A stretch of 64,000 nucleotides of DNA from Kribbella monticola (GTDB lineage: Bacteria; Actinomycetota; Actinomycetes; Propionibacteriales; Kribbellaceae): positions 124,001 to 188,000 of the forward strand of contig NZ_QFXK01000004.1 of NCBI RefSeq assembly GCF_003261635.1. Reading direction: 5' to 3'. Under the pieces are notes generated by a model that did not search any database, was not told where the DNA came from, and saw only the letters and a program-made list of their open reading frames with translations. Position numbers and translations under genes: made by a program. Positions 4,182 through 12,551 of this stretch are shown here, piece by piece. How positions within the stretch are numbered: the first letter of the stretch is position 1; every line of letters begins with the position of its first letter.

Positions 4182-5015
4182 CTACGTGGTCCGCAGCCCC
4201 GCGCGGCCCGTACTACGCCCTCTTCCGAGCCCCGTCTGTGCCTTCGGCCCGGGATCGGACAGGAAATCGGCGCGGGCCTTGAAGAGGCGCTCGGACTTGA
4301 ACCCGGACTTGATCCCGGAGCCACGCGCGCGCTCCGGATCGAACTCGGATTCTGGCCCGCGCTCCGGATCGAACTCGGAGTCGGGATCCGACTTGAGCTC
4401 GGGCCGGCGCTCCGGATCGAGGTCGGGCTTGCCTGTCGCGCCGAGCTTGGGCTTGGGCTCGCGCTCAGGTCCGAACTCGGGCTCGGGACCCGGCTCGAGC
4501 AAGGGCCGGCGCTCCGGATCGAGGTCGGGCTTGCCTATCGCGCCGAGGTTGGGCGCGCGCTCCGGTTCGAACTCGGGCTCGGCATCCGGCTCGAGCAGGG
4601 GCCGGCGTTCCGGATCGAGCTCGGGCTTGCCTGTCGCGCCGAGCTTGGGTTCGAACTCGGGCTTGCCTGTCGCGCCGGGCTCGGGATCCGGTTCGAACTC
4701 GGGCTCGGGTGGGGGTTCGGGGGCTGGGTGGAGATTGGGCCAGGGGCGGGGTGGTAGGTCGGAGCGGGGTTTCAGGTTGAGCGCGGGGTCCGGGCCGGGA
4801 TCGGGGTCGAGCCACTCGACCTCGGTGGCGCCTTGATGGCCGTGGATCGCGATCACCGACTCGATGGCGTCCCAGACGGTCGTGGTCGGGTAGTCGCCGT
4901 ACCAGCGGAGCGCGACCGCCCCGTCGGTGAACTGGACGCCCTCGGCGACCGGCCCGGTACCGCTGACCCCGGAGACGTCGTGATGGCGGATCAGCCGGAA
5001 ACGACGAGAACTCAT
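4182..5015 (-). CDS. Hypothetical protein with acidic proline-rich tandem repeats
   Basis: A 277-residue protein whose ATG (5015-5013) overlaps the stop of the upstream gene as ATGA, so translation is probably coupled. Residues 1-75 form an ordered-looking domain (GVQFTDGAVALRWYGDY, then VEWLDPDPGPDP). From about residue 76 the sequence is repeats built on KPxLDPERRPLLEP followed by PEFEPERxP and LGATG; three clear copies and partial ones give a highly charged, disordered tail. At DNA level the repeats are near-identical, so copy number may vary between strains. No enzyme motif. Family not recognised. Confidence 0.65.
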   Translation of the reverse strand: MSSRRFRLIRHHDVSGVSGTGPVAEGVQFTDGAVALRWYGDYPTTTVWDAIESVIAIHGHQGATEVEWLDPDPGPDPALNLKPRSDLPPRPWPNLHPAPEPPPEPEFEPDPEPGATGKPEFEPKLGATGKPELDPERRPLLEPDAEPEFEPERAPNLGAIGKPDLDPERRPLLEPGPEPEFGPEREPKPKLGATGKPDLDPERRPELKSDPDSEFDPERGPESEFDPERARGSGIKSGFKSERLFKARADFLSDPGPKAQTGLGRGRSTGRAGLRTT

Positions 5016-5269
5016 TTCGGCGCGACCTCCCACAACCGCTCCCCCGGCAGCTTGCGCCCCGGTGACGACTCGCTCGGCAGGATCGGCTCGCTCGTCACGC
5101 GCAACCCGGCGAACCGGCGCGACATGGCGGCTGCATAGCGGTCTGCCAGCTCGGCCTCCGCCTGGTAGTCCGCGACGACGTGGTCCCCGAACCACACTCG
5201 TACGCGGCGTCGTTGGGGTGCCGTCCCGCCTATCGGAACGGGGTCGGTACTGGCATCGTCGCCGGACAT
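5012..5269 (-). CDS. Hypothetical protein, coupled to the repeat protein
   Basis: An 85-residue reading from ATG 5269, chosen because AGGG lies eight bases upstream; the frame stays open upstream to a GTG at 5413 (133 residues) but the extra part is acidic low complexity. The conserved-looking core is RRRVRVWFGDHVVADYQAEAELADRYAAAM. The stop at 5012 overlaps the start of the next gene by four bases. The pair looks like one transcription unit. Function unknown; start uncertain. Confidence 0.5.
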   Translation of the reverse strand: MSGDDASTDPVPIGGTAPQRRRVRVWFGDHVVADYQAEAELADRYAAAMSRRFAGLRVTSEPILPSESSPGRKLPGERLWEVAPK

Positions 5270-5744
5270 CAGTGCACCCTGCGCCCGGTCGGCCTGATCG
5301 GCGTCTTGCGGCCGCCTGTCGGTGTTCCCATCAGCGGCATCGAGGACCATCGGTTCACTTCGATCACTTCCACTTCCCTGTGGGGATGGGTTCACTTCAG
5401 AGACGACCGCCACCCACAGTCATGACGCAGATCCAGAACTTTTTCTTTTCCGTACGCCGATCGCCCGCTCCTCCAACGCCCGCTCGCCCTGCGCGGTAGC
5501 TCGGCTCAGGCCGGCGACCCGGGTGGATGGGACGGTGGGCGCGTGGAGCGGGAACCGGTGGGCGCGGATCGGGCAAAGGGTGGTGTGAACCCGATTCGAG
5601 CTCTGGCGTCCGTGCCCGACCTACCCACTGATGCCCCACCCGAACCCACGGCCGTCGACGTACCAGGCGAGCACGCGGACTCCGACGTACCAGCTGAACG
5701 CGCGGATGCCGACGTACCGGGTGAACGCGTGGATGCCGACGTAG
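5270..5744. other. Gap upstream of sigma-factor remnant; no confident gene
   Basis: No confident gene lies here apart from the possible N-terminal extension of the preceding gene and a small plus-strand reading frame with 9-residue repeats (5543-5761). The stretch should hold promoters for the divergent neighbours; none is clear enough to mark. Confidence 0.4.
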
Positions 5745-5761
5745 GTGTCTGCGGTTGCTGA
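5543..5761 (+). CDS. Possible small repeat peptide (72 aa)
   Basis: A GTG-started frame of 72 residues that overlaps the start of the sigma-factor remnant by 17 bases. It contains three copies of a 9-residue unit DVPxExxDx, from codon-aligned 27-bp repeats. The period being a multiple of three favours coding, but there is no good ribosome site and no recognised family. It could equally be an upstream leader or chance frame. Confidence 0.25.
   Translation: MEREPVGADRAKGGVNPIRALASVPDLPTDAPPEPTAVDVPGEHADSDVPAERADADVPGERVDADVGVCGC
5657..5737 (+). repeat. 27-bp tandem repeat, three copies plus a partial
   Basis: Units start at 5657, 5684 and 5711, each opening GACGTACC and closing GCGxGGAxxCC, followed by a partial GACGTAGG at 5738. 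It lies immediately before the GTG of the sigma-factor remnant. Confidence 0.75.
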
Positions 5762-6489
5762 TGCGGTGTTGATCGCGGGGTCTCGGGCTTCGCCGGAGTT
5801 GTTTGCGGTGGTGTTCGATCGGCATGCGGTCGCGATTCATCGGTACGTCGCGCGTCGGCTCGGCAGCAGCGAGGCCGACGATCTGCTCGGGCAGACGTTC
5901 TTGCTGGCGTTCGAGCGCAGGCATCGGTCCGACAAGACGCGGTCGGACGCATTGCCGTCGTTGTACGGGATCGCGACCAACCTGATTCACCGGCGTAGAC
6001 GTGACGAAGTACGGCAGTACCGCGCCTACGCCCGTACGCCGGCCGCTGGCGACCAGGACGGCTTCGCCAACGAGGTGGCGGACCGACTGGACACAGTACG
6101 AGCCAATCGCGTGCTGTCCGAGGTACTGGCCGGTCTGCGGTCCGCTGAGCGTGACGTGCTGCTCCTGTACGCCTGGGAAGAGCTCAGCTATCCAGAGATC
6201 GCCCAAGCGCTCGACATCCCACTGGGGACCGTACGGTCCCGCCGACCTCCGCGCCGCGCTCTACCGCGCGGCCCGGCTGATCCCCGGCGTCCACCTGGTC
6301 GACGGCATCGTCAACCTCGACGGTGCCCAGGGCCGCGCCGTAACCCGCACCGCCAACGGCCAACGCATCGACCTCATCATCAACCCCACCACCGGCCACT
6401 TCATCGGCGAACGCCACCTATCCACCCAAACCACCCCTACGCAACCAAAGGCGCCACAACCTACTGGTCCGCCGTCACCACCCACCTAA
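5745..6489 (+). pseudogene. ECF sigma factor joined out of frame to an anti-sigma-like gene tail
   Basis: From GTG 5745 the frame encodes a normal ECF sigma factor: region 2 (FDRHAVAIHRYVARRL, DDLLGQTFLLAFERR) and most of region 4 (RDVLLLYAWEELSYPEIAQALDI, GTVRSR). At about 6240, exactly where a LHRARxxL helix should follow, that frame turns into Arg/Pro-rich nonsense running to 6521. In the +1 frame a sensible sequence starts: ADLRAALYRAARLIPGV and INPTTGHFIGER, ending at 6489. That second part is the usual C-terminus of CU044_5270-family proteins, which are encoded just downstream of such sigma genes in actinobacteria. The simplest reading is one internal deletion joining two neighbouring genes and destroying both. 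Whether the truncated sigma product retains activity is unknown. Confidence 0.75.
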
Positions 6490-6546
6490 CCACCACACCC
6501 CACCCAAGCCGTAACCGATAGCTCAGCGTTGAAAGACGGCTGGGCT

Positions 6547-7011
6547 TCAGATCACCCAGGGCTTCCACTGCTCCTGGTCGTCGGCGTCCGGGGTTGTCTC
6601 TGGAGCGAGGTCGTGCGTTCCAGCTCCGGGCAGATAGGCCGCGATCAAGAACTCCAGGTTGTGCAGCAGCATTGCCGGAGCGTCCGGCCGCGCCTCGATC
6701 AGCTTGTCAAACACGAGGCGCGACTGGCGATGCAGCACTTCCTCGCCACGACTTCGCATACCGATGTCGATCCCGTAGGCATCCGTCGCCTGGACCTCGT
6801 CGGGCCCGGCGTCCGGCGATACGTACCCGTTCCGCTGAATCACCACGCTGTACCAGTCGTCGTCATTGGCCAGACGGCCGCGCAAGCCGACCTTGTCCTC
6901 ACCATCCGGCTGATCGGGGTAACGCTCGATCCCCAGCACCCGCTCCAACCAATCGGCAACTTGTCCAGGCGTCTCATCCAAGCCCAGAAAAATGCTGTCG
7001 CTGGTGGACAT
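6547..7011 (-). CDS. Putative immunity protein, second paralog
   Basis: A 154-residue acidic protein. ATG 7011 is preferred over the GTG three bases earlier because AAGGAG is then five bases away. It aligns end to end with the neighbour at 7074: N-terminal DSIFLGLDETPGQVADWL versus DNIFLATGDPVADVARWL, central RNGYVSPD versus PNGYVNAD, and the shared end KPWVI/QPWVI. The tandem placement directly after a toxin gene is the classic position of duplicated immunity genes. Separated from its paralog by 62 bases. I infer that it binds the toxin's nuclease domain, or that of a lost relative. Confidence 0.65.
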   Translation of the reverse strand: MSTSDSIFLGLDETPGQVADWLERVLGIERYPDQPDGEDKVGLRGRLANDDDWYSVVIQRNGYVSPDAGPDEVQATDAYGIDIGMRSRGEEVLHRQSRLVFDKLIEARPDAPAMLLHNLEFLIAAYLPGAGTHDLAPETTPDADDQEQWKPWVI

Positions 7012-7073
7012 CACTGCTCCTTCAGGTAGGTGACAAGTCGCCCATCACCAAGATCAATAAACCTGGAGGAGGC

Positions 7074-7544
7074 TCAGCTGATGACCCAGGGTTGCCATTT
7101 TTCGAGGTCTGGTTCGTCGAGGGATGGTGCTGGGTCGAAGTAGTGGGTTCCTTTGCCGGGTAGGTGGGCGGCCGTCAAGGTACTGAGGTTGTGACTCAGC
7201 AGGATCGGCGTGTCGGGGCGCGTCTCGACCAGCTCGTCAAAGACCAGACGCGCCTCCATCGTCTGGAGCTCCTCGTCCGTCTGCTCTGCGTACCAGACGT
7301 CGATGTCGATCGGGTAGCGGTCGATCGCCTGGGCCTCCTCGTCAGGGTCGGCGTTCACGTAACCATTGGGCCGGACAGTCAGCACCACCGACCCGTCGGC
7401 GCTCCGGGCAGGACCTCGCAGGCGTATCAACCGGTTGTCAGGCTCCTCCTCGACCGGCGTCATTTGCAGCGTCTCCGCCAACCATCGCGCCACGTCCGCC
7501 ACCGGGTCACCGGTAGCAAGAAAGATGTTGTCGTCGTCGGACAT
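7074..7544 (-). CDS. Putative immunity protein, first paralog
   Basis: A 156-residue acidic protein starting one base inside the toxin stop codon (TGATG), with GAAGGAGA as ribosome site inside the toxin end. Such tight coupling ensures that immunity is made with the toxin. The sequence has no enzyme motif; conserved blocks shared with the next gene include RLVFDELVETRPDTP and the C-terminal WQPWVI. Strong acidity fits binding to a basic nuclease domain. Family name not recognised; the role rests on position, charge and duplication. Confidence 0.7.
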   Translation of the reverse strand: MSDDDNIFLATGDPVADVARWLAETLQMTPVEEEPDNRLIRLRGPARSADGSVVLTVRPNGYVNADPDEEAQAIDRYPIDIDVWYAEQTDEELQTMEARLVFDELVETRPDTPILLSHNLSTLTAAHLPGKGTHYFDPAPSLDEPDLEKWQPWVIS

Positions 7545-8833
7545 CAGTTCTCCTTCGTCAACGTGACCAGACGGCCGTCACCGAGGATGACATGTGCCGC
7601 AGCCGAGATGAACGCGCCTGGCTCACCGCAAACCATCCGGAATGCGCGCTGTGCCATGTCCTCGGCCAACCCGACCTTCCGGCCGTCGATGAGCACCTCT
7701 CCCGAGGCCCCGGCCTGGCCACTGCCCTTCCGCATGTTCCGCTTCACCGCCGACAGGGTTGCAACATCGAGTGTCTTGAATTCCATGATCCTGCCGGGGT
7801 CGCTCTCATTCTTGCGAACCATGGCATCCGGGTTCTTCTGGTGCTTCCTGCTGTGGTCTTCGATCCTCGCGTCGATTCGCCAGCCCTCTTTCACCAGCCG
7901 CGACGCGATCTCGATCTCCTTCGGTTTGAAAGTGTTCTGTGGATTGTGAACACCGGGGGCGAAATCGACTCCTAGAGCTCCACGTTGCGTCGCCGGGTCG
8001 AAGTTGGGGAGATCGACGTCGATGGCTGCGAATTCGATCGTGTCTGGTGTTGTGGGAGTTGCGGAGGCCGGCGTTGGGAGTTCGATGTTGATGACTGGTG
8101 GTGGGGGTTGGGTGGGGAGGTCGGGGTAGGTGAAGGTGGCGGTTACGTGGGTGGGGGTGATGGTGATGGTGGCGGTTTGCCAGGTGTGGTTGGCGTTGGC
8201 GGACATTGAGTGGAGGAGGTCGGTGGCGGATTCGTTGAGGTCTACGGCGATTTCGTAGGTGAGGTCCTCGGGAGGGTCCTGGTCCTCGACGACGATTGCG
8301 CGGCCGTCGGGGGTGACCATGAGTTCCACCTCGAGTTCTTCGAAGTCTTCGTGGTCTTCTTCGTCTTTTTGTTGTTTCTTGCGGAGTTTCTCGAGTGCTT
8401 TGCGGGCGACCTTGATGAGGGGTGGCTCGGGGGCTTCGGGTGCATCCGAGGCCGGTTTGAAAGGGGCGGAGAGGCGTTTGGTGCGGCCGAAGAGGTCGCG
8501 TTCGGCGACATCCCCGGTTCCGCCGGTCGTCCTGTCGCGGTCCGCGGAGCTCGCATCGGGGCGTGTGCCGGAACCGCCGCCCACAAGACGTTGAGCCCAA
8601 GCCTTGGCTTTCGGGGGCGCCATCGACAAGTAGTGGGCGGCTTCCTCGCAAGCTCGGGCGGCCGCGTCGAGTTGTTGGGCAGCCACGGTCGCCCGGCCTT
8701 GCGAAGCGGCGATGGCGAGCGCGGCGTTCTCCCGGCAGCGTTCCGCCGTACGGTGCAGGTGGAGGACCACCTGCGGTACCTCGTCGAGGCACTCGACCAG
8801 ACCTTGGGCGACTCGCTGCAGGTCGGACGGCAT
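7544..8833 (-). CDS. Polymorphic toxin with CdiA-CT-like nuclease C-terminus
   Basis: A 429-residue modular protein. Residues 1-85 are helical (CRENAALAIAASQGR region), resembling the N-terminal modules of actinobacterial secreted toxins. Residues 90-180 are disordered with an Asp/Glu/Lys-rich stretch (KKQQKDEEDHEDFEELE). A beta-rich part with PTTP linkers follows. From about residue 300 the sequence (EIEIASRLVKEGWRIDAR, then PDAMVRK, MEFKT, GSGQAG) matches the PD-(D/E)xK-like layout of CdiA C-terminal tRNase domains: acidic residue, E-x-K, then a basic helix and glutamine. It follows a WXG100-like gene by seven bases and is followed by two immunity-like genes. The target is probably tRNA or other nucleic acid (inference). 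Confidence 0.72.
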   Translation of the reverse strand: MPSDLQRVAQGLVECLDEVPQVVLHLHRTAERCRENAALAIAASQGRATVAAQQLDAAARACEEAAHYLSMAPPKAKAWAQRLVGGGSGTRPDASSADRDRTTGGTGDVAERDLFGRTKRLSAPFKPASDAPEAPEPPLIKVARKALEKLRKKQQKDEEDHEDFEELEVELMVTPDGRAIVVEDQDPPEDLTYEIAVDLNESATDLLHSMSANANHTWQTATITITPTHVTATFTYPDLPTQPPPPVINIELPTPASATPTTPDTIEFAAIDVDLPNFDPATQRGALGVDFAPGVHNPQNTFKPKEIEIASRLVKEGWRIDARIEDHSRKHQKNPDAMVRKNESDPGRIMEFKTLDVATLSAVKRNMRKGSGQAGASGEVLIDGRKVGLAEDMAQRAFRMVCGEPGAFISAAAHVILGDGRLVTLTKEN

Positions 8834-8840
8834 CGAGGGC

Positions 8841-9101
8841 TCAGATCTGGTCGGCGTAGCTCTTGCAGCCGGCGGACGCGATCTCCAGTGCCTCGGCGGC
8901 TTGTTCGACAGCTTTGCCGGCCGCGTCGAGAATCTCTGCGATGTCGCGGTCCACGCCGGTCGCCGTACCGGCGATCAGACTCTCCACCTGGGCGCTGTGC
9001 TGGGTGAACCGGAGCTTGAACCCGGCCAGGCCACCAGCAGCTTGCTTGGCCTCCATGGAGACCTGCTGCAGCTGTTCCTTGAGCCGCTGTACGTCGGACA
9101 C
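8841..9101 (-). CDS. WXG100-like small helical protein
   Basis: An 86-residue protein from GTG 9101, with GAAGAAGAGG upstream. It is almost wholly helical (MSDVQRLKEQLQQVSMEAKQ at the N-terminus) and, in place of the WxG turn, has AGFKLRF in the middle, followed by a second helix (GKAVEQAAEALEIAS). Length and helix-turn-helix layout match ESAT-6/WXG100-like partners of type VII-style secretion. It lies between the membrane protein and the toxin with gaps of 16 and 7 bases. The role as a secretion partner or chaperone of the toxin is inferred. Confidence 0.6.
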   Translation of the reverse strand: MSDVQRLKEQLQQVSMEAKQAAGGLAGFKLRFTQHSAQVESLIAGTATGVDRDIAEILDAAGKAVEQAAEALEIASAGCKSYADQI

Positions 9102-9117
9102 TGACTGCCTCTTCTTC

Positions 9118-9798
9118 CTAGGGATTGCGCTTCTTCGGCAACACGATCGCCGTTCCGGAGATGATCACCGGTACGGCGATCGCGATCCACCACGGCAGTC
9201 CGGCCGCCATCGCGACGACGACCAGCACGGCACCGCCCCAGCCCCACCAGCGCGCGCCGGGCAGGCGCGGCAGGCCTAGTACGCGGGATGCGGCCAGCAT
9301 GGTGACGGCCTCGATCGCTGCGCCTTCCAGTCCGGCCAGGAAGGATCCGGAGATCACCCAGATCAGTACGAAGCCGACGACGACCAGTGCGGCGCTGATA
9401 GTACGGCGCTTGCGGCGCTCCTGCTCTGCCCGGGCCTTCGCGCGCACCTCCTCCAGCTTGTCCACTGTGTCCGCCAGCTGCTTGGTGAGCTTCGCCGCGG
9501 CCGCCTCGATGTCGGTGAGTCCCCTGATCGCAGGCATCGGCACGGTCGTCCTCTTGCCGTCCGCAGGCAACCCAGCGCGCTGCAGCGAAGCAGCGGCCTT
9601 CTCTGCAAGTGCGTTGAGTCGCAGCTCGAGCTTCCGCCCGCGCTCGGCCATCGCGTCGGCCTCGGCCATCGCTGTGGCCTCTGCCTTGGACCTGTTCGCA
9701 GTCAGCCTGTCCTGCGCCTGCTGCGCGTCAGCACGCGCTCCAGCGACCTGTCGCACCGCACGGGCGTACTCGGACCACACCTGCTCTTCGGTCTTCAT
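9118..9798 (-). CDS. Membrane protein with N-terminal coiled coil
   Basis: A 226-residue protein whose ATG (9798-9796) overlaps the stop of the ATPase gene as ATGA. Residues 1-130 are Ala/Glu/Lys/Arg-rich heptads (QVAGARADAQQAQDRL, AAAKLTKQLADTVDKLEEV), a clear coiled coil. A basic ERRKRR motif precedes hydrophobic spans around residues 137-155, 160-175 and 185-215, ending in a basic KKRNP tail. This gives a cytoplasmic coiled coil anchored by two to four spans. Coupled to the ATPase and followed by the WXG100-like gene, it is a plausible membrane platform for toxin export. No known Ecc component is evident. Confidence 0.7.
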   Translation of the reverse strand: MKTEEQVWSEYARAVRQVAGARADAQQAQDRLTANRSKAEATAMAEADAMAERGRKLELRLNALAEKAAASLQRAGLPADGKRTTVPMPAIRGLTDIEAAAAKLTKQLADTVDKLEEVRAKARAEQERRKRRTISAALVVVGFVLIWVISGSFLAGLEGAAIEAVTMLAASRVLGLPRLPGARWWGWGGAVLVVVAMAAGLPWWIAIAVPVIISGTAIVLPKKRNP

Positions 9799-12551
9799 CG
9801 GCGCACCAGCTCTACATAGCGGTCGACCTCGTCCACGCGCAGCGGCGCGAACGGTACGACGACCTGCGCCTCCGGGTGCAGCCCGTCCCACAACAGCCCG
9901 CGGTGCGGCTCCGACGCCCACCGCACGAGCGGCCCACACACTGCGCGTACGCCGTCCTGCGGATGCCGCAGGAACAAGTGGGTCGCAACATTGGCCCGCC
10001 CGTACCCCAGTTGCTCGGTGCAGACATGCAGACGGTTCCACCAGCCGAACGTCACCAGCCCCTGGGTCGGCCCGTCCCGCACGATGTCCTGCAACGCGTT
10101 CGCCGGACTCTCGAAGTACCCGTCGGCGTGGGTCTGCATCTTCGGTACGCCGTGGAAGCCGAACCCGAGCAGGTAGGTCTCCCCACCGATCTGCCCGTCG
10201 CGCACAGCGTTCCGCAGCGAGAACAACCGCGGGGCGATGTCCTCGTGCTTGTCGACGGTCTCGACCTCCGACCCGAGCTGTCGCAGCGCCTGAACCAACG
10301 CACCCTTGCCCTCGGCAACAGCCGGGGACGAGTCGGTCCCGTCGACGAAGATGAACCGCGGCGGTACTACGGCTGCCGCGGCCGCGGACACCGCCAGCCC
10401 CGACAACACCCCGAGCGCATCGGCCGGGCCGTCACCCAGCACCAGTACGCCGGCGCCCGGCTCAGGCCGCACCTCGACGGCCACCGGAGCTTCGGTCACC
10501 GCGATCGGCAACCCCGTCCAGGGCCGGCCGAGTTCGGGCTTCACCGAGGCGGCGGTGTCGGCCAACCGGGCCGGCTCCGCGAGATGGAAGACGCGCGGCG
10601 GATGCGTAGTACCGGATCTGAGCCACAGTTCGCGGCGCAGGTCGTCGAGCACGGCCTTGTCGGCGAAGCTGACCAGCACGTGCTGGTTGTCGTCTGGCGA
10701 GCCGAAGTTCGCGTTCAGCACGGCCTCGCCGCGGAACTGCAGTTCGGCCGCCGCCGTGTTCCCCGTCCGCAGGATCGCCTGCGAGTCGGCCGGAGTGGTC
10801 TTCAAGGCAATCCGGTACGGCACCTGCCCGAAGATCGAGTCGCGTCGCGTCGACAACCGCTTGACCCCCTCGATCGTCTGGGTCGCGAGCACCACGTGTA
10901 CGCCGTACGCGCGGCCGAGGCGAACCAGTCGCTCGAGCAGTCGCGCGGCCTCGTCGGCCAGTTCGTCGTCGTCTTCGAGCAGCACCTGGAACTCGTCCAG
11001 TACGGCGAGGATGCGCGGCGGGCGATCCGGTCCCGCAGGCAATTCGGCGATGTCCGCGACGTTGCCGTGCGACTTGAAGATCTCGCTGCGTCGGGCGAGC
11101 TCGTCGGAGAGGTGCCGCAGTACGGCCAGCCCGAACGCCCGGTCGCTGTGGATGCCGAGCACGCGCACGTGCGGAAGCCAGTGCTCCCGCTCACCGGCCG
11201 GCCCGAGGGCGGAGAACTCCACGCCGTGCTTGAAGTCGAGCAGGTACATCTCCAGATCCACCGGCGCATAACGCGCGGCGAGACCGTGGATCAGCACGAG
11301 CAACAGATTCGACTTGCCCTGTCCGACCGCTCCCCCGACCAGTACGTGTGGCAATGCCGGGTTACCGCTGCGCAACCGCACGAGGGCCGGGGTGCGGTCG
11401 TCGTACCCGATGACGGTACTGAGCTCGTCGCTGACCGGCTGCCACCAGGTCGAGCGATCCGGCAGCGTCCGGTTGAACTCGATCGTCGGCAGCACCGCGA
11501 TCTCAGCCAGTTCCGCGATCACGTCACAGATGCCTGCGGCAACATTCGCGTCGAACGGTGGATCGAGCTTGGCCGGAACGTTCTGCAGCTGCGAGATCTC
11601 GACCCGGTTGCCGGTGATGGCCACCGGGTCGAGCAGGTCGAGCAGTTGCCGCGGATCGACCTCGTGCTCGCCCGTCGACGCAGGGTCGTGATGGACCAGG
11701 AAGCAGATGCCCCGATCCGCCCCGGTGGCCGCCAATCGGACCAGATCGCGCTGCGCCAGGGAATCGATGCCGGAGGGGTAGTCGAAAAGGACGATCAGCC
11801 GGTACGGATCGGTGACCCGACCGGTCTCGCGGATCAGTTCCTCGAACCGTTTGTGCCCCAGCTGCGCCTGCCTGCTGGCCCGCAGCGACGACACGTCGAC
11901 GAGTCCGGACAGCACGGTATGCAGCTGCTCCGCGGTATGTGTTGCCCGCGGCACCAATTGCGGGTACTTCGTGGTCAGGTGCCCGAGCAGCCCCATCATC
12001 CCGGTCAGTCGCGGATCGAACGCGTCGATCCGCAGCCGGAACGGTTCGGCCGCCGCGATCAGCCGCAGCGCCACACTCTGCAGGAGCTGCCGGGCGGCCT
12101 CGTTGCGGTCGGCCGTCACCTTCCAGCCGTTCGTCCGCAGCAGCGGCGCGACCACCGGCGTACCGGCTTCGAGTTGACCTATCCGCACGTACGACGGTGT
12201 GCCCGCGCCGACCAGTTGCCTCGACCTCCAGCGGGCGTCGTTGGGCGGGATCGAGGCCAGCCCTGGCGCCAGGCGGTCCGCCAGCAGGCGAGCCGCCGGC
12301 TCGGCCGTCGCCAGTGCTTCCGCGGTCGCGGCCTCTACCAGGCCACGCGATTCGCGCCGCGCCAGCACGGTCTGCTCCTGCAACTGCCGGTGCAGCCGCA
12401 CGGCACGCTGGTGCTCCCCATGGGTAAGCCGACGCGCGGTCTCGAGGAGCTCCCCGAGCGCGAACTGCAGTCCCCGGACCCGTGCCTCCAGAACTTCCGG
12501 AGAAACCGGTCCGGGCATGCTTTCCCCGTCAGGCTTCTCCGTCACGAGCAC
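9795..12551 (-). CDS. FtsK/SpoIIIE-type ATPase of the toxin cassette
   Basis: A 918-residue protein without transmembrane segments. Residues 1-350 form an N-terminal region with a long helical start. The FtsK-type ATPase domain has Walker A GGAVGQGKSN (Lys413) and Walker B ILAVLDEF (Asp519-Glu520), followed by VVLATQTIEGVKR, the usual sensor strand. After about residue 690 comes a second P-loop-like domain in which the Walker A position reads VLGDGPADALG, without Lys-Thr, so it is probably degenerate, as in the later domains of EccC. It is the first gene of the cassette. I infer that it powers export of the WXG100-like protein and toxin. An alternative role in DNA translocation is less likely given the neighbours. 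Confidence 0.85.
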   Translation of the reverse strand: MLVTEKPDGESMPGPVSPEVLEARVRGLQFALGELLETARRLTHGEHQRAVRLHRQLQEQTVLARRESRGLVEAATAEALATAEPAARLLADRLAPGLASIPPNDARWRSRQLVGAGTPSYVRIGQLEAGTPVVAPLLRTNGWKVTADRNEAARQLLQSVALRLIAAAEPFRLRIDAFDPRLTGMMGLLGHLTTKYPQLVPRATHTAEQLHTVLSGLVDVSSLRASRQAQLGHKRFEELIRETGRVTDPYRLIVLFDYPSGIDSLAQRDLVRLAATGADRGICFLVHHDPASTGEHEVDPRQLLDLLDPVAITGNRVEISQLQNVPAKLDPPFDANVAAGICDVIAELAEIAVLPTIEFNRTLPDRSTWWQPVSDELSTVIGYDDRTPALVRLRSGNPALPHVLVGGAVGQGKSNLLLVLIHGLAARYAPVDLEMYLLDFKHGVEFSALGPAGEREHWLPHVRVLGIHSDRAFGLAVLRHLSDELARRSEIFKSHGNVADIAELPAGPDRPPRILAVLDEFQVLLEDDDELADEAARLLERLVRLGRAYGVHVVLATQTIEGVKRLSTRRDSIFGQVPYRIALKTTPADSQAILRTGNTAAAELQFRGEAVLNANFGSPDDNQHVLVSFADKAVLDDLRRELWLRSGTTHPPRVFHLAEPARLADTAASVKPELGRPWTGLPIAVTEAPVAVEVRPEPGAGVLVLGDGPADALGVLSGLAVSAAAAAVVPPRFIFVDGTDSSPAVAEGKGALVQALRQLGSEVETVDKHEDIAPRLFSLRNAVRDGQIGGETYLLGFGFHGVPKMQTHADGYFESPANALQDIVRDGPTQGLVTFGWWNRLHVCTEQLGYGRANVATHLFLRHPQDGVRAVCGPLVRWASEPHRGLLWDGLHPEAQVVVPFAPLRVDEVDRYVELVRR

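Follow-up and report, generated by a model that had tools for sequence, protein, structure and literature searches.

A conserved Kribbella gene cassette predicted to be a minimal type VII-like exporter of polymorphic toxins

A six-gene cassette at one chromosomal site

The window analyzed here is a stretch of 64,000 nucleotides from Kribbella monticola (NCBI RefSeq assembly GCF_003261635.1, contig NZ_QFXK01000004.1, positions 124,001 to 188,000), which in our set lies on contig C79 of genome G000 (8.03 Mb). It holds a cassette of six genes (Table 1) that an earlier note on this DNA had put forward as a minimal or novel toxin export system of actinobacteria. Our open reading frame (ORF) coordinates agree with the six packed minus-strand genes described there, including their overlaps and gaps. 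The gap between the two immunity-like genes is 59 bases when counted from the GTG at 7014 and 62 bases from the ATG at 7011.

Table 1. Features of the cassette and its surroundings in the window.
Feature	Position	Strand	Description
EssC/EccC-like ATPase	9795-12551	minus	918 aa; first gene of the cassette; likely N-terminal coiled coil and three FtsK-like domains; Walker A and B only in the central domain (~366-622)
Membrane protein	9118-9798	minus	226 aa; overlaps the ATPase gene by 4 bases; N-terminal half charged and helix-prone; hydropathy gives two or more hydrophobic segments toward the C-terminus
Helical hairpin	8841-9101	minus	86 aa; 16-base gap after the membrane protein gene; WXG100-like but without WXG; ends Y-A-D-Q-I
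Polymorphic toxin	7544-8833	minus	429 aa; 7-base gap after the hairpin gene; helical N-domain (~1-86), variable linker, CdiA_C-type nuclease (~291-429)
Toxin N-terminal domain	8558-8833	minus	common to orphan effectors; proposed export/partner-binding domain
CdiA_C-type nuclease domain	7544-7963	minus	E306, P335-D336, E351-x-K353
Immunity-like gene a	7074-7544	minus	156 aa; 1-base overlap with the toxin gene; no Pfam match
Immunity-like gene b	6547-7014	minus	155 aa; related to a; no Pfam match
Sigma-factor-like ORF	5745-6521	plus	labeled by reading; adjoins the cassette
Short gene pair	4182-5195 and 5012-5413	minus	beyond the immunity genes; one has a long repetitive Pro/Glu/Arg-rich tail

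The cassette is a core feature of Kribbella. An ATPase orthologue was found in 38/38 Kribbella genomes, the other 37 being 72-99% identical to the window ATPase, and the membrane protein and hairpin were likewise present in all 38 when the stretches downstream of the ATPase were examined (two of these stretches, in G001 and G036, end early at a contig edge). The ORF caller behind our counts is a simple GC3 filter and not a gene finder. Among 22 related loci, 21 have ATPases 80-91% identical over the best segment; the 22nd, a partial one from a Propionibacteriales metagenome-assembled genome, reaches 55%. The order ATPase, membrane protein, hairpin, toxin is kept in 21/21 close loci (L004-L024; 20 from Kribbella and one from Streptomyces sp. 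SID13031). This recurrence across Kribbella loci and genomes rules out a chance gene cluster.

Because the flanking genes are kept (AddB-like in 23, glyoxalase-like in 23 and epimerase-like in 20 of 24 loci, these names being labels read off translations without a family search), we place the cassette at one chromosomal site in 23 of the 24 loci checked. Only L131 (G031) departs from this, and no other locus is as divergent. Median identity between the window and the other copies (8-21 sequences each; for the hairpin, 21 other copies at the cassette locus) is 95.3% for the hairpin, 87.5% for the ATPase, 76.5% for the toxin N-domain and 76.4% for the membrane protein, and falls to 55.4% for the toxin C-domain, 47.2% for the toxin linker and 46.9% for immunity.

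Predicted toxins, immunity genes and orphan effector modules

The earlier note had given the toxin a CdiA-CT-like nuclease end, and our results support this assignment. CdiA_C (PF18451) matches 6 of 16 full-length toxin orthologues at E≤0.01 (best 1.6e-8; the L019 toxin scores 20.7 bits, under the cut-off of 26.6), and a structure model of the window toxin finds its best VIA-align match in CdiA-CT 4g6v_A (Z 11.7, rmsd 2.6, 118 residues). The predicted local distance difference test score (pLDDT) of this model is 58.6 overall, with C-terminal blocks of 64-93 from residue 291. Nearly all other VIA-align rows cover only the helical N-domain (Z up to 9.4); these are common two-helix arrangements and were not used. 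Compared with CdiA-CT/CdiI of Burkholderia pseudomallei (4g6v), the cassette toxin has the same toxin-end fold but no CdiA-type delivery domain. A Pfam scan of the window toxin returned no match, CdiA_C and LXG included; Foldseek with the model gave no match at E≤0.001, with the PspGI restriction endonuclease in the second row (E 0.51) and 4g6v not among the best 50 rows, and the toxin profile found nothing useful among PDB sequences. Within the CdiA_C-type domain, E306 is kept in 15, P335, D336 and E351 in 16 and K353 in 15 of 16 aligned toxins, a pattern that we take to be that of a PD-(D/E)XK-type nuclease. This alignment leaves out six of the 21 close loci (L007, L008, L012, L014, L018, L023), whose toxins are truncated, frameshifted, at a contig edge or of the other type.

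Across the 38 genomes, the toxin slot holds a full CdiA_C-type toxin in 29 and a Tox-REase-2-type toxin in three (one of which matches PF15646 at 4.4e-9). The toxin is frameshifted in one genome and reduced to its N-terminal part in four (in one of these, G036, it runs off the contig), and in one genome the slot is empty. The two immunity-like genes of the window are indeed related, with 42% identity to each other. Their family is present in 28/29 genomes with the CdiA_C toxin (all except G006), in 0/3 Tox-REase-2 genomes (one of which ends at a contig edge) and in 2/6 of the remaining genomes; the cassette immunity family thus goes with the CdiA_C toxin type. In G003, the gene that comes after the Tox-REase-2 toxin is an unrelated one of 124 aa with no Pfam match. 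Two candidate identities for the cassette immunity proteins were rejected: they show no homology to Imm1, and no solved CdiI was found by sequence, the best rows being designed proteins over 40 residues. In a sister genome with a 99% identical ATPase (L182, G037), the toxin is cut to its N-terminal part and the immunity family is missing from the stretch; the window genome (L181) keeps both.

The hairpin also occurs away from the cassette. Its profile identifies 87 places in the 38 Kribbella genomes, of which 38 are cassette copies and 49 are others, with 1-6 places per genome. We examined 20 regions holding 22 of the 49 extra hairpins, one of which (partial, L176) fell under the threshold. 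Directly downstream of all 21 orphan hairpins above the threshold, at -1 to 18 bases, lies a gene with the toxin N-domain. Among 17 scanned orphan effectors (three partial ones and L175 were left out of the scan), 14 end in a DddA-like domain (PF14428) and three in Endonuclea_NS_2 (PF13930). DddA-like deaminases are a family used for base editing.

Imm1 (PF14430) was found in 3/3 scanned small neighbor genes, and an Imm1 profile matches directly downstream of 15/15 deaminase-type modules and 0/3 Endonuclea modules. Seven of those 15 genes were used to build the profile, leaving eight independent matches; the match in L174 is a 97-aa ORF. Some modules are broken: the copy on C70 of the window genome keeps Imm1 with an interrupted effector frame, and L164 and L176 have partial effectors. 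The module on C77 of the window genome is whole, with a DddA-like effector. Altogether one N-domain carries four toxin families, CdiA_C, Tox-REase-2, DddA-like and Endonuclea_NS_2, which is the conserved N-terminal domain with exchangeable C-terminal toxins that defines polymorphic toxins; the adjacent cognate immunity gene that also defines them is found, as predicted immunity, for the CdiA_C and DddA-like types. So one exporter locus appears to coexist with several effector-immunity pairs.

Components of the predicted exporter and related systems

The ATPase is FtsK-related and of the EccC/EssC type, as are those of the type VII secretion systems (T7SS) T7SSa-T7SSj (PMC11217815). Its closest solved relative by sequence is EccC (PDB 4nh0, 7.3e-24). 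It matches PF01580 at 3.6e-19 and the EccCa model TIGR03924 at 1.7e-27, yet the latter with 96.5 bits against a cut-off of 509. Two PADLOC models also match the ATPase domain (SspH 2.9e-17, mad8 1.1e-16). A DNA translocase or conjugation ATPase was rejected on scores, the EccCa value comparing with 0.026 for FtsK and 0.031 for VirB4; conjugation genes at the cassette were not searched.

The central domain carries Walker A (GGAVGQGKSN) and Walker B (ILAVLDEF) motifs. Segments 118-366 and 636-912 align to it in hhalign with probabilities of 97.3 and 95.0 (38-sequence alignment), and a GxxxxGK(S/T) motif was not found in either flanking segment of the window ATPase. The earlier note was therefore right about one intact domain but counted a single degenerate one where the alignment of the flanks gives two. 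In L151, a family member, the central motif is lost as well. Hydropathy gives no N-terminal hydrophobic segment, and the ATPase departs from the T7SSa-T7SSj pattern, described as membrane-bound with four C-terminal nucleoside triphosphatase domains (PMC11217815), in having three FtsK-like segments, one of them intact. A second, divergent ATPase occurs in one Kribbella genome (L128; G019:C25), accompanied by a hairpin of its own that ends in Y-A-R-S-I and by a protein with six transmembrane segments. For the cassette membrane protein, a Pfam scan returned no family over its cut-off.

The small partner, called WXG100-like in the earlier note, does belong to a hairpin family, characterized by a loop with Gly and by a Tyr close to the C-terminal end, but the window hairpin lacks a WXG motif and does not match PF06013 at E≤1, and we do not assign it to WXG100. 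A related hairpin (L146) scores 0.011 against PF06013, and the family profile reaches 4lws_A at 0.0031 and ESAT-6 at 0.026, values that do not exclude a distant tie of the family to WXG100. Hairpins near related ATPases in other families match the profile over their full length (probability 96.8, E 2.8e-10). Tyr stands fifth from the end in 65/73 hairpins and 71/73 end in Leu or Ile, with several genomes counted twice, as L157-L160 repeat cassette loci. T7SSa substrates carry a C-terminal YxxxD/E signal, and by analogy we infer that the hairpin tail may be a docking tail. One small hairpin near a related ATPase (L142:9230-9493) is DUF6244 (PF19757, 2.1e-27), a lead to the function of this family, on which our literature search found nothing.

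The cassette seems independent of the ESX parts EccB and EccD. EccB (PF05108) is present in 21/38 Kribbella genomes and gives no match in 17/38, the window genome included; EccD matches in 29/38 (25 over the cut-off) and gives no match in 9/38; both are found in 0/14 controls. No match to EccD, EccE or MycP was found among the six cassette proteins, the last two having been looked for there and not genome-wide. The earlier note had called EccB, EccD, EccE and MycP absent. The window genome does hold an EccD above the cut-off, a few kb from an EccC-like ATPase with a 1345-aa frame, elsewhere than the cassette (L002; C54:346693-352196); this is an ESX-like locus in a genome without an EccB match. 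Neither EccB nor EccD is found in nine genomes (G011, G012, G013, G014, G018, G026, G027, G031, G034), and since both a full CdiA_C-type toxin and the immunity family persist in eight of the nine, EccB and EccD do not seem to be needed. Missing EccB/EccD and the ATPase architecture together rule out an ordinary ESX fragment.

Outside the genus, the components are found together in part. In the order (293 genomes), 49 genomes have the ATPase at E≤1e-60, 38 of them Kribbella and 11 others; the effector N-domain occurs in 39, the 38 Kribbella plus G275, and always together with the ATPase. In the class (394 genomes), 54 have the ATPase and 41 the hairpin at E≤1e-6. Forty of these 41 also carry the ATPase, which lies within 6 kb of the hairpin on one contig in 35 and on a different contig in five; the assembly of the one genome that has the hairpin alone (G573) consists of 1,200 contigs. 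These positives come mostly from one family (f21), so that the genomes are not independent. The f21 loci L140, L143, L149 and L152 (also L137 and L138) hold an ATPase, a protein with 3-4 transmembrane segments by simple hydropathy and an 87-aa hairpin. The order ATPase, membrane protein, hairpin recurs on a plasmid of Rhodococcus pseudokoreensis, whose hairpin is 37% identical; next come a protein that differs at its C-terminal end and a small gene, both without a match in a Pfam scan. In L055:8538-11744 and L147:8809-11741, Hsp70, TPR and (in L055) GrpE genes lie directly upstream of a related ATPase, the TPR match in L147 being weak. In another genus, an ADP-ribosyltransferase-like protein (L123:3883-4668; PF03496 1.6e-4, below the cut-off) stands beside a related ATPase with two hairpins.

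Several described systems resemble the cassette. The ‘mobile’ T7SS of PMC3482391 is given in a table footnote as solo WXG proteins with a YueA-like ATPase that has three FtsK/HerA domains, the middle one active; the CoCoNuT paper PMC11090510 credits the stand-alone operon to Anantharaman et al. 2012. The Kribbella cassette shares the three FtsK-like domains with the middle alone intact, the small hairpin partner and the stand-alone arrangement. It differs from that description in being a chromosomal core locus (relatives elsewhere do sit on plasmids) with its own membrane protein, a hairpin beside the ATPase without WXG or PF06013, polymorphic effectors and orphan modules. The EssC-like extension of Type III-A CoCoNuTs (PMC11090510) also has an ATPase without membrane helices, with an N-terminal coiled coil and with the central domain alone active, as well as two hairpins (one without WxG) and a coiled-coil/nuclease fusion, which we count as a likeness. 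In contrast to CoCoNuTs, a scan limited to the six cassette proteins gave no McrBC, VWA, kinase or phosphatase match, and the cassette has immunity genes and swappable toxin ends.

In the Helicobacter pylori HP0062/HP0066 cluster (PMC4978471) and on a plasmid of Helicobacter sp. NHP19-012, an FtsK ATPase, a WXG100-type hairpin and an HNH/WHH nuclease adjoin. The plasmid hairpin bears WGD and matches PF06013 at 4.6e-5, under the cut-off, and its ATPase is 22% identical; the H. pylori cluster includes a DnaK homologue, and WxG plus FtsK is called the minimal T7SS set in PMC4978471. The T7SSb LXG effectors are similar in that a small hairpin gene immediately precedes the effector gene, the effector has a helical N-domain and a variable toxin end, and an immunity gene is present. 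LXG modules also occur away from their exporter. The cassette differs from them in having no LXG match and a three-domain ATPase without a membrane helix, not a membrane-bound four-domain one (PMC11217815, which also mentions Lap-type partners). A literature search of titles and abstract starts found no description of the cassette; most subscription journals and bioRxiv lay outside its coverage, and we do not claim absence from print.

As to the neighboring genes, short ORFs similar, by eye, to the window's short gene pair follow the Tox-REase-2 cassette in L191, and the sigma-factor-like ORF has a homologue in 1/24 other loci.

A predicted exporter and its alternatives

Taken together, the sequence data make it probable that the cassette is a dedicated minimal type VII-like exporter of polymorphic antibacterial toxins that would damage DNA or RNA, those of the orphan modules included. 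We propose that the hairpin would pair with the helical N-terminal domain of the effector, much as WXG100-type partners do with LXG effectors, and that its C-terminal tail would dock on the cytoplasmic three-domain ATPase. The coiled-coil membrane protein could hold this ATPase at the membrane, replacing the membrane helices of EccC/EssC, and the central ATPase domain would drive export. The C-terminal nuclease, here of CdiA_C type, would then harm sister or rival cells, with the two immunity proteins protecting the producer, and the same exporter may serve the scattered hairpin-effector modules with their DddA-like deaminases (and Imm1) or Endonuclea_NS_2 ends.

Several observations weigh against this proposal. 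No channel-forming component is known for the cassette. The membrane protein has no credible solved relative (best E 0.0049, to a helical stretch), and sequence homology between the Kribbella and f21 membrane proteins was not found. The ATPase structure model was poor (pLDDT 39) and was not used, and the ATPase holds three internal 19-residue windows with hydropathy of 1.5-1.9 (by hydropathy, not a transmembrane predictor), which we take for buried parts of domains. The hairpin lacks the WXG100 signatures, and as its similarity to the effector N-domain is weak (hhalign probability 20 and 51), their pairing remains a guess. In five of the 38 genomes the cassette toxin is cut short or frameshifted, in one of them at the edge of a contig, and in a further genome the slot is empty. 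Ten genomes of the order carry the ATPase without the effector N-domain, and 14 of the class carry it without this hairpin. The earlier note had held that ATPase and membrane genes occurring elsewhere without toxin or WXG100-like neighbors would speak against its idea, and this is partly the case: in 4/4 f21 loci scanned, what follows the trio (ATPase, membrane protein, hairpin) is a GT20 gene of the trehalose-phosphate-synthase type and not a toxin gene, so the core may have uses besides toxin export.

This last observation feeds the idea that the core has a housekeeping role, the export of a surface factor or of the hairpin itself, on which the Kribbella toxins only hitch-hike. The much higher conservation of the hairpin than of the toxin N-domain, and the persistence of the core where the cassette toxin is broken or missing, fit it too. 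We nevertheless consider it improbable, given that service to several orphan effectors also explains the conservation and that hairpin copies travel with effectors. Somewhat less remote, though still unlikely, is an intracellular conflict or abortive-infection device, in which a soluble ATPase remodels a hairpin-nuclease complex, toxins, once triggered, turn on the producer itself, the immunity genes serve as antitoxins and nothing is exported. An ATPase without an N-terminal membrane helix would suit such a device, as would the related ATPases in restriction and defense loci (CoCoNuT, PMC11090510), the matches to the PADLOC models, the Hsp70, TPR and GrpE neighbors on the Rhodococcus plasmid and the Hsp70 and weak TPR matches in L147. 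Against it stand the dedicated membrane protein in 38/38 genomes and the combination of swappable toxin ends, type-matched immunity and modules far from the ATPase, which is the pattern of intercellular polymorphic toxins.

It is also conceivable that the cassette and orphan modules are canonical ESX/T7SSa substrates and the ATPase an accessory EccCb-like subunit, and both the EccC-like ATPase with EccD on C54 and the kinship of the cassette ATPase to EccC would agree with this. Given that 17/38 genomes lack EccB and that toxin and immunity persist in nearly all of those lacking EccD as well, this explanation is largely refuted and has the smallest chance of those considered here.

Returning to the dedicated toxin exporter, the ‘minimal exporter’ of the earlier note is well supported, as a prediction, by the conserved core, the swappable toxin end, the matching immunity, the effectors in trans and the retention of all this without EccB and EccD. 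The word ‘novel’ is right only in part, because a three-domain ATPase beside WXG proteins was described in 2012 (PMC3482391) and in 2024 (PMC11090510). In our judgment, what is new is a predicted exporter dedicated to toxins, together with its orphan effector modules, and what was known is the stand-alone WXG/FtsK kind, itself only predicted. It is tempting to go further and see a separate exporter class outside T7SSa-j, with a soluble three-domain ATPase, one small coiled-coil membrane recruiter and a WXG-less, Tyr-tailed hairpin as universal partner. It would deliver exchangeable DNA-deaminase, nuclease and CdiA_C effectors without an EccB/EccD complex, as a genus-wide weapon of contact or kin competition, and its relatives in other actinobacterial families would export non-toxins. 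We offer this wider proposal tentatively, as a real possibility that falls a little short of an even chance.

Known T7SS work through a multi-protein membrane complex; if three proteins suffice here, the cassette would be a minimal and tractable model of the way in which FtsK-type ATPases transport helical-hairpin substrates. It would also let the stand-alone WXG/FtsK exporters predicted in 2012 be tested in a soil bacterium, and the profiles of the hairpin and effector N-domain can be used for finding further effectors. For a set of actinobacterial DddA-like deaminases, the cassette offers a proposed delivery route.

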